The translations under genes were made by a program, and so were the position numbers. The notes under the pieces were generated by a model. The model was not told the origin of the DNA and ran no database searches. It saw nothing but the letters and a program-made list of their open reading frames with translations. Below, in pieces: positions 53,609 to 57,480 of a stretch of DNA of 64,000 bases; position 1 is the stretch's first letter; the number at the start of each line of letters is the position of its first letter. The stretch is taken from assembly GCA_000018565.1 (NCBI GenBank), contig CP000875.1, forward strand, positions 4,727,199 through 4,791,198, written 5' to 3'. Source of the DNA: Herpetosiphon aurantiacus DSM 785 (lineage in GTDB: Bacteria; Chloroflexota; Chloroflexia; Chloroflexales; Herpetosiphonaceae).

Positions 53609-53638
53609 TTGACGGCGCAAGGTAGCCTATGGTACGAT
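53609..53638 (+). promoter_or_regulatory. Candidate promoter of the B12-riboswitch operon
   Basis: TTGACG (53609-53614) and TACGAT (53633-53638) are 18 bases apart. Transcription would start near 53645, just before the riboswitch P1 helix at 53661. Confidence 0.55.
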
Positions 53639-53660
53639 CAGCCCAATCAATCATAAATTG

Positions 53661-53762
53661 CTATTCAAATGTTGTGCAAACAGTTGGGGGAAATCCGGTG
53701 CAAATCCGGTGCAGTCCACGCTACGGTAAGCCTTTGGCCAAGCCCGAATACCCATTGAATAG
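53661..53762 (+). ncRNA. Cobalamin (AdoCbl) riboswitch aptamer
   Basis: The region shows the conserved B12-element core: GGGGGAAATCCGGTGCAAATCC, then GGTGCAGTCCACGCTACGGTAAG (the B12 box region) and AAGCCCGAATACC. A P1 helix closes it: CTATTCAA (53661-53668) pairs perfectly with TTGAATAG (53755-53762). Known riboswitches of this class bind coenzyme B12 and turn off uptake or synthesis genes when the vitamin is plentiful. It lies 100 bases upstream of the alpha-barrel gene at 53863. Confidence 0.92.
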
Positions 53763-53773
53763 TTGATTTCTGG

Positions 53774-53846
53774 GTTGGCTTGCGTTGGCACAAGCACAAC
53801 CAACGCGTTGTTATCTGTTCCTTAGCCAACTGGCTAAGGTTTTTTT
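53774..53846 (+). terminator. Riboswitch expression platform: antiterminator and terminator
   Basis: A terminator CCTTAGCC-AACT-GGCTAAGG (53820-53839) is followed by seven T. GTTGGCT at 53774-53780 can pair with AGCCAAC at 53824-53830 inside the terminator, so it is a candidate antiterminator. A separate hairpin GCGTTGG/CCAACGC (53782-53788 with 53800-53806) lies between. The design implies B12-induced transcription termination before the first gene, whose ribosome site AGGAGG follows at once. Confidence 0.85.
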
Positions 53847-53862
53847 GATTTAGGAGGCACGC

Positions 53863-54963
53863 ATGCTCCGACGAGCAGCCATCCATCGCTGGTTATTGGT
53901 TTTAGTCGCGCTATTTGTGGCCATGCCAGTTGCGGCGCAAGCCCCGACCGAAGGCGCAAAAGCTGGCGCGTGGATTGTCACTCAGGCTCAGGCCGATGGC
54001 AGTTTTCCTGGCTTTGGGTTGGGCGAAACCGCCGATGCCGTCTATGCCTTGAAGGCAACTGGCTTGAAAGTTGATCTCAACGTTCAAAGCTTTATCGAAA
54101 AAAATGCTAGTGCAATCGCCGCTAAGCCTGGGGTTGCCGCCAAGTTTGTGTTGGCCGAATTGTTGCTGGGCTACAATCCTCGCGCCGTTGCCGGAACCGA
54201 TTTGGTCGCGGCTGTAACTGGCAGCTACAAAGCCGATAGTGGTATGTATGGTGGCGATGTCACGACCCATGCCTTGGCTTTGTTGGCCTTGAATGCTGCT
54301 GGCGCACCAGTCGAAAACAAAGCGATCAACACCTTGAACTCGGTCCAAATCGCCGATGGATCATGGTCGTTCAGCGGCGATACAACTGCTGGCGCTGGCG
54401 ATACCAATACCACCGCTTTGGTAGTACAAGCCTTGGTTGCGATTGGTCAAGGTAAGAGCGAAGCTGTTACCAAGGCGCTGAGCTACTTGCAAAGCCAACA
54501 AAATAGTGATGGTGGTTTTCCCTATTCGAAGGCTTCGAGCTATGGCAGCGCCACCGATGCCAACTCAACCGGCTTGGTAATTCAAGCGATTGTGGCAACT
54601 GGCGGTAATCCAACCGCTGCACCTTGGGCGACGGCGACTGGCAATCCATTGAGTGCCTTGTTGAGCTTGCAAAATGCCAGCGGTGCGTTCCGCTACGATG
54701 CAGCAACGCCCGATGATAATGCGTTTGCGACATATCAAGCTACGCCTGCTTTGTTCTATGTGACCTATCCTTTGACCGCCTTGGTGACAGCACCCCAACC
54801 AACTGCTGTGCCAAGCACACCTGTGGCAACCGCTACCCCCAAACCAAACACCCCAATTACCTTGCCCGACACTGGCGCACCTGCATTGCCATTATGGCCA
54901 GTGGTGATTGTGTTTGGCTTGGCTTGTATTGTGGCTGGTTTACGTTTGCGCCGCGTCGCTTAA
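53863..54963 (+). CDS. Secreted alpha-barrel protein with prenyltransferase/squalene-oxidase repeats and LPDTG anchor; likely B12-binding
   Basis: A 366-residue exported protein. A signal peptide (1-26, ending VAAQA) leads to an all-helical domain (about 30-305) with repeats of the terpenoid-cyclase/prenyltransferase type, such as QADGSFPGFG, IADGSWSF, QNSDGGFPYS and LQNASGAFRY. The alpha domain of animal intrinsic factor and transcobalamin has the same alpha6-alpha6 barrel fold. A Thr/Pro linker precedes LPDTG (334-338), a hydrophobic segment and RLRRVA, a cell-wall sorting-type tail. A cobalamin riboswitch precedes it, so I infer a cobalamin-capture role, not terpene chemistry. ATG 53863 has AGGAGG. 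Confidence 0.82.
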   Translation: MLRRAAIHRWLLVLVALFVAMPVAAQAPTEGAKAGAWIVTQAQADGSFPGFGLGETADAVYALKATGLKVDLNVQSFIEKNASAIAAKPGVAAKFVLAELLLGYNPRAVAGTDLVAAVTGSYKADSGMYGGDVTTHALALLALNAAGAPVENKAINTLNSVQIADGSWSFSGDTTAGAGDTNTTALVVQALVAIGQGKSEAVTKALSYLQSQQNSDGGFPYSKASSYGSATDANSTGLVIQAIVATGGNPTAAPWATATGNPLSALLSLQNASGAFRYDAATPDDNAFATYQATPALFYVTYPLTALVTAPQPTAVPSTPVATATPKPNTPITLPDTGAPALPLWPVVIVFGLACIVAGLRLRRVA

Positions 54964-54973
54964 TCTATATATT

Positions 54974-55379
54974 CCCTCACCCCCTCACCCCATCTCCCGC
55001 CCAGCAGGCGAGGGGGGAGCCGCGAAAAGCCCCTCGCCCGCCGCAGTGGGAGAGGGGTTGGGGTGAGGGCATTCTTTACCGAAAATGATTGGCTAGGATT
55101 CGCCATCGATGTTCATGCCCTCGCCCTCTCGCCCACCCAGCGAGGCGAGGGGAACCAGCCCAATTAAGTGCCCATCTCCCTGCGAGGCGAGGGGAGCCGC
55201 GAAAAGCCCCTCGCTCGCCGCAGTGGGAGAGGGGTTGGGGTGAGGGCATTCTTTACCGAAAATGATTGGCTAGGATTCGCCATCGATGTTCATGCCCTCA
55301 CCCCCTCGCCCAGCGAGGCGAGGGGGGAGCCGCGAAAAGCCCCTCGCCCGCCGCAGTGGGAGAGGGGTTGGGGTGAGGG
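54974..55379. repeat. Three tandem repeat family A elements (copies 6-8)
   Basis: Copies at 54974-55069, 55118-55246 and 55295-55379. The 48 bases between copies (CATTCTTTACCGAAAATGATT and onward to ATGTTCATG) are duplicated exactly at 55070-55117 and 55247-55294, so a unit of about 177 bases has been tandemly duplicated. The array fills the 445-base gap between the alpha-barrel and beta-domain genes. It is not a CRISPR: there are too few units and the spacers are identical. Confidence 0.88.
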
Positions 55380-55408
55380 CATTCTTTACTGAATAGGAAT
55401 AACATTTC

Positions 55409-56293
55409 ATGGGTCGTTTGTTGGTTGTGGTAGTTACGCTGGTTTTGTTGCTGCTTGGCAATTTGGCTCAATCGATTGCTGCTCAAGGTGATGGGCATCA
55501 ATATCATGCGGCGGTGGTCGTGCAATATGCTTCCGGCGCGGTCGATGCTCGTTGTGTTGGCTTCGATCAAGAATCAATTAGTGGCTATGATGCTTTGCTG
55601 GCAGCAGGCTTCAATGTGGTGGCTGAAGGCTCATCGATGGGAGCAATGGTTTGCTCAATTGATAGTGTGGGCTGCGATTATCCCAATGAATCGTGTGCCT
55701 GCAAATGCCAAGGCGGCGATTGTACCTACTGGGCCTATAGCCATTTGCTCGATGGTGTTTGGCAATATTCCAAGCTTGGCGCTGGCTCATACAAGGTCCG
55801 TGATGGCGCAGTTGAAGGCTGGGCTTGGGGTGGTGGCAGTGTCGAGCGTGGCTCAACGCCGCCAGTGATCAGTTGGGGTGAGGTTTGCGCGGCGCAAGCA
55901 GCACCGGTGGCAACCGAAATTCCGGCAACCGCCACTAGCGAACCAACCGCCATTCCCGCAACCAATACTTTAGTTCCGGCAACAATCGCTAGCCAGCCAA
56001 GCAGCACCGCTAACCCAACCAGCGAGGCTATTGCAACTGAAACCCAATTTGAACCAAGTGCAACCACAAAAGTCGCCAGCCCAACTATTGCGGCGAGCGC
56101 AACAACTGCTCCGACCGAGCAGGCAACTGCCAGCCCCAGCATTACGCCCACTGCGACGCTGACGATCGTGAGCACGCCAACCGTTGAGGCCAGCAGTAGC
56201 GGCTCAGCAATTCCGATCAATTACTTGATTTTTGGCTTGATTTTGCTGGCCTTGGCTGGCGGCGGCATTTGGAAGCGCCAGAGCAAGCGATGA
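55409..56293 (+). CDS. Membrane-anchored DUF4430-like beta-domain protein; likely cobalamin-binding
   Basis: A 294-residue surface protein: signal peptide (1-25), a cysteine-rich domain (about 29-162), a Thr/Pro/Ser/Ala-rich stalk (about 165-262), one membrane helix (about 265-286) and a basic tail KRQSKR. The folded domain has GYDALLAAGFNV and the WQYSKLGAGSYKVRDGAVEGWAWG pattern of DUF4430, the family that includes the C-terminal beta domain of transcobalamin and intrinsic factor. Eight cysteines (49, 82, 89, 96, 98, 100, 105, 160) probably form disulfides. It follows the alpha-barrel gene and overlaps the EcfT gene by four bases, so it should be the second half of a B12 capture device. Confidence 0.8.
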   Translation: MGRLLVVVVTLVLLLLGNLAQSIAAQGDGHQYHAAVVVQYASGAVDARCVGFDQESISGYDALLAAGFNVVAEGSSMGAMVCSIDSVGCDYPNESCACKCQGGDCTYWAYSHLLDGVWQYSKLGAGSYKVRDGAVEGWAWGGGSVERGSTPPVISWGEVCAAQAAPVATEIPATATSEPTAIPATNTLVPATIASQPSSTANPTSEAIATETQFEPSATTKVASPTIAASATTAPTEQATASPSITPTATLTIVSTPTVEASSSGSAIPINYLIFGLILLALAGGGIWKRQSKR

Positions 56294-57480
56294 GTGCCGA
56301 AATCTATCAACCAACTGCTGGACGTGCCCGCGAGGCTTTGACCAAAACTGCTCCGCCAACGGCCAACAAGGAATGGTTCAGTCCAGTTAGCCAACGTCAG
56401 CGCCGCATCGCCCGCCCATGGGAAGGCGGCCATAGTTTGGCGTGGGTTGCTTGGCTGGTCGCAGCCTTGGCATGTATCGGCCAAACCGATCAACCGCTCT
56501 ATTTGATTTTGATTGGGGCGGTGACGTTGTTGGTTTGGCAGAGTTGCGCCTTGGATAGCCCGTTTCAGGCGGTGGTACGGGTTATGTTGCAACTTGGGGC
56601 GGTGTTGTTTGGCTTTAATTTGCTGTTTAGCGTGATTACCGCCAGTGTGCTGCGCGGCCAAACGGTGCTGTTTGAGTTGCCAAGTTGGCGCTTGCCGCAA
56701 CTGCTTGGTGGCATTCAACTGGGCGGAATTATTACCGCTGAGCAATTAGCAAGTGGTGCAGTGCGTGGGCTACGTTTGTGGACATTGTTGCTGGTGGTTG
56801 GTACATTCAACGCCTGTGTCAATCATTATCGCTTGTTACGGCGCACGCCCCAAGGCTTTTTTCAATTGGGCTTGGTGCTAACCATTGGCTTGGCGTTTGT
56901 GCCCCAAACCTTGCTACGCTTACGGGCAATTCGTGATGCCCAACGCTTGCGCGGCCATCGCTTTCGTTCGTGGCGTGATGCATTGCCCTTGTTTGTGCCC
57001 TTGCTCAGCGGCGGCCTAGAGCAATCGCTGACCCTAGCCGAAGCCATGGAAGCCCGTGGGTTTGGTCGCGCTCAACGTGGTCAAATCGCCGCCTACTGGA
57101 CATGGCTGGGTTTGGCGGGCGTGTTGCTGGTCTGTGCTGGCATTTGGATGCTGTTTTTCTATGCTAGAGCCAGCTTGGGCGCAATGGTCGCTTGGGTATT
57201 ATTGGCACTTGGCTTGATTGCCATGCTCAGTTATTGGTGGCAAGCCAATCGGCTGATTGTGCGCACCAGTTATCGCCGCGAACGCTGGACATTCCGCGCT
57301 ACGGTCATAACGCTTTTGGCGCTGGCTGCGCCGCTAGGGTTTTGGCTAGCACAGCGCTCAGGCAGTGCCATGGTTTATCGCATTTACCCCAAATTAGCTT
57401 GGCCACCATTTGAGCCATTGCTGACCCTGGCAATTTTGGCCTTGCTTGCGCCATTATTGTTTAAGTCTAGCGCTCGCTAA
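56290..57480 (+). CDS. ECF transporter transmembrane subunit (EcfT/CbiQ family), enlarged
   Basis: A 396-residue membrane protein, longer than usual EcfT (about 260). After a polar N-terminus of about 50 residues come the EcfT helices. The two coupling-helix motifs that grip the ATPases are present: AQRLRG (217-222) and EARGFG (254-259). About 135 further residues with three or four extra helices follow, ending at KSSAR. The start ATG 56290 lies in an ATGA overlap with the beta-domain gene. EcfT couples ATP use to a vitamin-specific S component; the riboswitch upstream points to cobalamin. No EcfA or S-component gene is in this window. The end overlaps the convergent peptidase gene by 14 bases. 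Confidence 0.88.
   Translation: MSAEIYQPTAGRAREALTKTAPPTANKEWFSPVSQRQRRIARPWEGGHSLAWVAWLVAALACIGQTDQPLYLILIGAVTLLVWQSCALDSPFQAVVRVMLQLGAVLFGFNLLFSVITASVLRGQTVLFELPSWRLPQLLGGIQLGGIITAEQLASGAVRGLRLWTLLLVVGTFNACVNHYRLLRRTPQGFFQLGLVLTIGLAFVPQTLLRLRAIRDAQRLRGHRFRSWRDALPLFVPLLSGGLEQSLTLAEAMEARGFGRAQRGQIAAYWTWLGLAGVLLVCAGIWMLFFYARASLGAMVAWVLLALGLIAMLSYWWQANRLIVRTSYRRERWTFRATVITLLALAAPLGFWLAQRSGSAMVYRIYPKLAWPPFEPLLTLAILALLAPLLFKSSAR

Follow-up and report, generated by a model that had tools for sequence, protein, structure and literature searches.

A transcobalamin-like clade of SLBB proteins, defined by a beta-hairpin that follows the helix, was described by Burroughs et al. (2007; PMC1796856). Its bacterial members are commonly fused to a toroid, are generally encoded together with CbiO and CbiQ, and were proposed to scavenge vitamin B12 (cobalamin) or its precursors, so the general idea of transcobalamin-like B12 scavenging by bacteria is already published for other bacteria than the one treated here. 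In the case of the human carrier transcobalamin, the separated domains can assemble into holo-transcobalamin (PMC5599065). Herpetosiphon aurantiacus was reported to have no B12 biosynthetic genes and to possess a riboswitch-regulated B12 transporter, which was linked to predation (PMC3766115). This article describes a locus of H. aurantiacus DSM 785 located in a 64-kb stretch of DNA (contig CP000875.1, positions 4,727,199 to 4,791,198), referred to below as the window, which belongs to a genome of 6.79 Mb in three contigs. The locus spans positions 53609-57480 of the plus strand and contains three genes, P0001, P0002 and P0003, behind a cobalamin riboswitch. It is probably a riboswitch-repressed system in which a split clamp on the cell surface captures a corrinoid, vitamin B12 being the likeliest one, and feeds it to an energy-coupling factor (ECF) importer. 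The elements added here to the published idea are the split and separately anchored form, the link to cobalamin riboswitches, the link to S-components of the PF12822 family and the fusions between the beta domain and an S-component.

Organization of the locus

53650-53772, plus strand: cobalamin riboswitch aptamer RF00174 (Rfam covariance model, 45.1 bits, E 4.1e-08, gathering score 31.5)
53863-54963, plus strand: P0001, 366 aa, an exported protein with an alpha/alpha barrel that would form one half of the B12 catcher (Pfam, NCBIfam, barrel-family profile)
55409-56293, plus strand: P0002, exported beta-grasp (transcobalamin beta-like) protein, 294 aa, with a Thr/Pro stalk and a C-terminal membrane segment (sequence and predicted fold)
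55505-55891, plus strand: beta domain of P0002 (AlphaFold2 on 55490-55897, pLDDT 93.2, pTM 0.87)
56290-57480, plus strand: P0003, EcfT of the CbiQ family, 396 aa (Pfam PF02361, 2.1e-10)

The riboswitch is the sole Rfam match above the gathering score in the window. The barrel domain of P0001 lies at roughly 53959-54804 and matches SQHop_cyclase_C of Pfam (1.2e-8); the protein carries an N-terminal hydrophobic segment, and its export, like that of P0002, was judged from N-terminal hydrophobicity. P0002 contains eight cysteines, a Thr/Pro-rich stalk and a hydrophobic C-terminal segment, and shares the bases ATGA with P0003 in a 4-base overlap. An earlier note on this DNA, made from the letters alone, had described precisely such an arrangement (a cobalamin riboswitch, an exported alpha-barrel protein with an LPDTG tail, an exported cysteine-rich protein on a membrane-anchored Thr/Pro stalk and an EcfT in a four-base overlap), and all of these elements were recovered.

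The beta domain of P0002

The model of the beta domain, built from 53 aligned sequences, is a beta-grasp fold in which a helix (residues 32-38) is followed immediately by a hairpin of two strands (43-48 and 51-57). When compared with the PDB by Foldseek, the human transcobalamin beta domain ranked first (E 7.4e-05). A second structure comparison returned 15 PDB entries at Z 11.1-12.3 before the next row dropped to 6.2, and, with the exception of 3u7z, which is bacterial, the 15 are structures of haptocorrin, transcobalamin or intrinsic factor. This match between predicted and known structures is the strongest single result of the analysis, and the beta domain of P0002 is thus predicted to share the fold of the beta domains of the three animal carriers, on which the model superposes.

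The relationship takes a different form in sequence profiles. No Pfam family matches P0002 at E <=1, and the DUF4430 profile (PF14478) found no match in P0002, in the whole genome or in the 53 aligned domains, that of the window included. The DUF4430-like character proposed in the earlier note is therefore visible in the predicted fold only and does not extend to membership of the profile. The NCBIfam family SCO2322_fam was matched at E <=0.01 by 50 of the 53 aligned domains, including that of the window, P0002 falling under the curated cut-off. In a tree of the 53 domains, whose deep forks are weak, P0002 groups with the stalked proteins of its own family (100/100) and falls in neither of the two clusters formed by fused or short beta1 domains. 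Its beta domain is 98-99% identical to the copies in named Herpetosiphon species.

Conservation of the gene set in relatives

A search with P0002 gave matches at E <=0.001 in 39 of 60 related genomes, or in 34 after five weak matches driven mainly by the low-complexity stalk (G018, G029, G033, G054 and G058; E 3.9e-05 to 4.1e-04) were dropped. Of 251 genomes sampled from across the phylum Chloroflexota, 61 contain the beta domain by profile at E <=1e-8. The scan of named genomes yielded 46 loci, including those cut by contig ends, which belong chiefly to Chloroflexota; the other labels are Thermomicrobiaceae, Actinomycetota or Acidimicrobiales, Polyangium and Gracilibacteria. The same gene order as in the window is present in four further Herpetosiphon loci, while a fifth (L034) ends before the barrel. 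Of the 46 loci, 36 have a same-strand barrel gene no more than 1.5 kb away, and 33 have at least one ECF gene within 8 kb (EcfT in 30, an S-component in 20, EcfAA' in 16); two or more beta open reading frames (ORFs) occur in 18. In loci from another set of relatives, the full operon order barrel, beta, S-component, EcfT, EcfAA' is found in L054-L057, and another order, barrel, beta, His-phosphatase, CobS, EcfT, in L041 among others. Judged by eye, the neighbours in L062, L063 and L065 resemble a BtuCDF-type importer. An observation of its own comes from an Acidimicrobiales bin (L130:4375-9827), where the ECF genes are divergent from the barrel/beta pair and the riboswitch is at the barrel-side start.

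All 46 loci were scanned with Rfam, and 35 have a cobalamin-class riboswitch upstream in the same orientation (8/10, 7/8, 7/10, 8/12 and 5/6 by scan batch, the one in L091, of the third batch, being AdoCbl-II); in L111 and L130 it overlaps the ORF start as called from the first start codon. It was absent upstream in the other 11 (L088, L100, L102, L114, L119, L120, L121, L123, L129, L132 and L133), in four of which (L088, L119, L123 and L132) the first gene found begins no more than about 330 bases from the edge of the locus. Among other riboswitch classes, a single one passed the threshold in these loci, a glycine riboswitch on the opposite strand of L112. In a second sample of 20 short loci from relatives, with species overlapping those of the 46, RF00174 was present in 9. 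The recurrence of the gene pair beside EcfT and cobalamin riboswitches, which the earlier note had offered as a check, was thus confirmed, and EcfAA' and S-components lie beside the pair as well.

Natural fusions

In seven ORFs (L095, L098, L101, L102, L117, L126 and L128) a single open frame encodes a beta domain and, after it, one or two barrels; the beta match in L101 is weak (3.4e-04), and six ORFs are left under stricter counting. Two ORFs (L095 and L128) join a beta domain, a long stalk and an S-component. The fused ORFs may contain internal starts. Joinings of barrel with beta domain and of beta domain with S-component are what a clamp plus a relay to the importer predicts. The single-barrel fusion L098 was modelled with pLDDT 93.2 and pTM 0.89, and the model suggests that its beta domain and barrel have a defined packing. 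For P0001 and P0002 this model is an indirect guide, because identities to the window proteins are low and P0002 falls outside the clusters of fused domains in the tree, from which the L098 beta half was left out. Separately, S-component, EcfT and EcfAA' occur in one open frame at L102:10479-14462, possibly, to judge from this frame, a single-chain ECF importer.

ECF and B12 genes elsewhere in the genome

An EcfAA' gene stands alone at C1:266407-267996 and is 60% identical to the EcfAA' found within a barrel/beta operon (L045). An S-component of PF12822 is encoded at C1:3671239-3672048, with no ECF neighbours; it is related to the S-components of seven barrel/beta loci (L050, L053-L058; E 7e-68 to 1e-60) and had no match below E 1 among PDB sequences. 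P0003 may pair with the unlinked EcfAA' and S-component. A second set of EcfAA', EcfT and S-component is present in the genome amid genes that look thiamine-related by eye.

Three RF00174 matches occur in the genome, the one in the window included. The second heads a run with btuF, btuC, btuD and cob genes (by eye), in which an FecCD permease was confirmed, and a 1435-residue ORF; the third heads genes that look like ribonucleotide reductase and metE (by eye). CbiC, the one marker of corrin synthesis searched for, was not found in the genome, CobS was found, and four B12-binding domains are encoded.

Promoter, terminator, anchoring and repeats

53609-53638, plus strand: sigma-70-like promoter match, weak (TTGACG, spacing of 18, TACGAT, with TG ahead of the second hexamer)
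53820-53846, plus strand: terminator-like hairpin, 8-pair stem then seven T (terminator scan and sequence)
54862-54876, plus strand: sortase-type LPDTG motif in the tail of P0001; a hydrophobic stretch and RLRR come after it (sequence)
54964-55408, no strand: intergenic stretch of 445 bp between P0001 and P0002, largely dispersed repeat copies

The promoter match is weak, since shuffled sequences alone give a mean of 2.7 such sites and 5 were seen in the region. The hairpin is likely the expression platform of the riboswitch; because the number of terminator-like sites in the region (3) is below the shuffle mean (6.2), this assignment draws on its position and its 8-pair stem. Folded by itself, the riboswitch region has z -0.65. 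On the 3' side of the hairpin an AGGAGG ribosome-binding site precedes the ATG at 53863. The repeat in the intergenic stretch has a unit of about 100 bases, with three copies here and 51 genome matches among those listed (40 of 396 candidates scored); this repeat-filled gap is probably secondary.

An LPxTG motif is present in 16 of 54 barrel ORFs after removal of exact duplicates, P0001 counted, and the genome has six sortase matches by Pfam, five above the cut-off. A different tail, like YLPLVLR and without a membrane segment, ends several barrel and short beta proteins (L055, L056, L061 and L093) and possibly serves for sorting or anchoring in Chloroflexota.

Alternative explanations

Several results weigh against a split clamp of the transcobalamin type. 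The barrel-family profile, compared with PDB sequences, meets squalene-hopene cyclases first (2.8e-41), and the 57 sequences at E <=0.1 include no cobalamin carrier, which weakens a close tie between the barrel and transcobalamin. The beta-family profile gave only weak matches in the PDB sequences (best E 0.086), again with no carrier. By fold, L098 is closer to squalene-hopene cyclase (Z 24.9) than to haptocorrin (20.1) or intrinsic factor (19.8), in rows that span residues 113-403, mainly barrel, its domain order being reversed relative to transcobalamin. In sequence and fold the barrel of P0001 is therefore nearer to squalene-hopene cyclases, its own alpha6-alpha6 fold being assigned from Pfam and the modelled barrel being that of the homologous L098; of the two transcobalamin-like halves announced in the earlier note, the beta half stands by fold, and the close barrel tie is overstated. 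Identity between L098 and the window proteins is low, 28% for the beta half against P0002 and 34% for the barrel against P0001. The window operon has neither EcfA nor an S-component, both being unlinked in the genome, and the locus would be a second uptake system, because another riboswitch heads the run with the FecCD permease. A barrel was not detected in 10 of the 46 loci (L088, L109, L111, L112, L114, L115, L119, L120, L121 and L122). In five of these, from Anaerolineae/Caldilineae (L109, L111, L112, L115 and L122), a riboswitch is accompanied by two beta proteins, the first of which has a PEP-CTERM-like tail. In Polyangium, lone exported-looking beta proteins (L120:9815-10387 and L121:9839-10390) have no detected barrel, ECF gene or riboswitch in their vicinity.

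The nearness to squalene-hopene cyclases would suit a role for P0001 as a barrel enzyme, terpene cyclase-like or otherwise, with no tie to B12, a reading that we consider highly improbable. DxDD is the catalytic motif of the cyclases, and a zinc site or a thioester needs a cysteine. At the position aligned with DVDDTA of the cyclase, DxDD was kept in none of 29 barrel rows, the window row reading DTNTTA and the single row with D.DD (L132) having it elsewhere; no cysteine is present in the window barrel. On these grounds P0001 was rejected as a terpene cyclase, a prenyltransferase or a thioester protein, and the motif of an intact cyclase active site, which would have counted against the earlier note, is missing. 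P0001 is, moreover, headed by a riboswitch, linked to importer genes and equipped with an N-terminal hydrophobic segment. Just as far-fetched is an EcfT that serves a cobalt (CbiMNQO) importer, with surface proteins binding cobalt or cobalt complexes. The Pfam name of the EcfT family (CbiQ, cobalt transport protein) speaks for it, but the four S-components scanned are PF12822 and none is CbiM, on which account the cobalt importer was rejected, and the genome lacks CbiC, a marker of cobalt-requiring corrin synthesis.

Two further explanations, both unlikely, stay closer to a B12 capture system. The beta protein might bind B12 and feed the importer by itself, the barrel having another surface role and forming no clamp. 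This would fit the five loci with a riboswitch and two beta proteins, the beta domain and S-component in one open frame in two ORFs, and the structure 5np4, in which the human beta domain by itself holds cyanocobalamin (PMC5599065). However, the records of those five loci end within 500 bases past the second beta gene, so a barrel could lie further, and a barrel is adjacent in 36 of the 46 loci and in frame with the beta domain in seven ORFs. It is likewise improbable that the main ligand of the same system is a precursor or fragment (cobinamide, alpha-ribazole or dimethylbenzimidazole) and not complete cobalamin, an explanation which overlaps with the preferred one, so that the probabilities assigned do not sum to one. 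In its favour, some operons hold CobS, CobT or a His-phosphatase, possibly CobC, finishing enzymes for salvaged precursors, and the genome keeps CobS without CbiC. Monocyano-cobinamide was also seen bound to the human beta domain (PMC5599065). Such genes occur, on the other hand, within 8 kb in only 8 of the 46 loci, and riboswitch control is compatible with any corrinoid source. The capture of a corrinoid by a split clamp is therefore retained as the preferred explanation: the interpretation given in the earlier note is supported and largely holds. The analysis shows the riboswitch match, the genes, the predicted beta-domain fold, the conserved gene set and the fusions, while the ligand, the switching, the joint clamp and the hand-over are the parts that we infer.

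Proposed mechanism and significance

At low cellular B12, the cobalamin riboswitch would let transcription pass the terminator. P0001, by its sortase-type tail, and P0002, by its membrane-anchored stalk, would be exported and exposed at the surface, anchored by different means. The P0001 barrel and the P0002 beta domain would jointly enclose the corrinoid, as do the alpha and beta domains of transcobalamin, and the stalked P0002 would hand it to an ECF importer composed of P0003, EcfAA' (C1:266407-267996) and the S-component (C1:3671239-3672048).

In general, the S-component alone is described as the substrate-binding part of ECF importers. We give an even chance to the broader proposal of an ECF importer with dedicated extracellular binders, in which the split clamp takes B12, which is then relayed inward by a beta domain attached to the S-component through a stalk or a fusion. 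If true, such a relay would add a new mode to ECF uptake and give bacteria a counterpart to the relay from carrier to receptor in humans; in PMC1796856 the operons point to something similar in other bacteria, though it is not named there. The gene pair provides a marker of two genes, in many cases with a riboswitch in front, for a poorly known capture of scarce B12 by such bacteria, and the beta domain also occurs in a few records outside the phylum Chloroflexota. As a simple split system, it could allow ligand-driven assembly of a transcobalamin-like clamp to be measured, and the fusions bear on the origin of the animal B12 carriers. It also offers a likely role for the SCO2321 and SCO2322 families.

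Comparison with known systems

The split system had no title or abstract match in the open-access literature among the matches listed, and the regulon tables of PMC3766115 may include the operon; the literature carrying the SCO2321-SCO2324 tag is one paper, on a transdermal peptide. P0001 matches SCO2321_fam (2.3e-27), yet under the curated cut-off. Contrary to the earlier note, which expected annotation pipelines to call the first gene terpene cyclase-like and to miss its role, NCBIfam does have families for P0001 (SCO2321) and for most of the beta domains (SCO2322); they are listed without a named function.

The ECF-CbrT importer of Lactobacillus delbrueckii (PMC5997447), which takes up B12, is likewise of the ECF type and consists of EcfT, a pair of ATPases and an S-component. 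CbrT itself binds the substrate, and no surface binder is described in the parts of that paper drawn on here, whereas the window locus has candidate surface binders. The SLBB proteins of Burroughs et al. (2007) are closer: they are exported, have an alpha/alpha toroid at the N- or C-terminus, are encoded in operons with CbiQ and CbiO and are often accompanied by a second SLBB protein. In that clade the toroid is fused to the SLBB domain, and low-GC Gram-positives, planctomycetes and euryarchaea are named; the words chloroflex and riboswitch are absent from the main text of PMC1796856, and neither a split pair nor an S-component fusion is described in the sections drawn on here.

Transcobalamin, intrinsic factor and haptocorrin of animals are like P0002 in the predicted fold of the beta domain, hairpin insert included, and likewise have an alpha/alpha barrel as its partner, a match at the level of fold that was modelled for L098 only. 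Their barrel and beta domain are in one chain, whereas the window encodes two separately anchored polypeptides; the natural bacterial fusions place the beta domain first, the reverse of transcobalamin, and the barrel of P0001 is closer to squalene-hopene cyclases than to that of the animal carriers. The system is accordingly classified as one that works like transcobalamin and shares the fold of its beta domain, outside the single-chain carriers.

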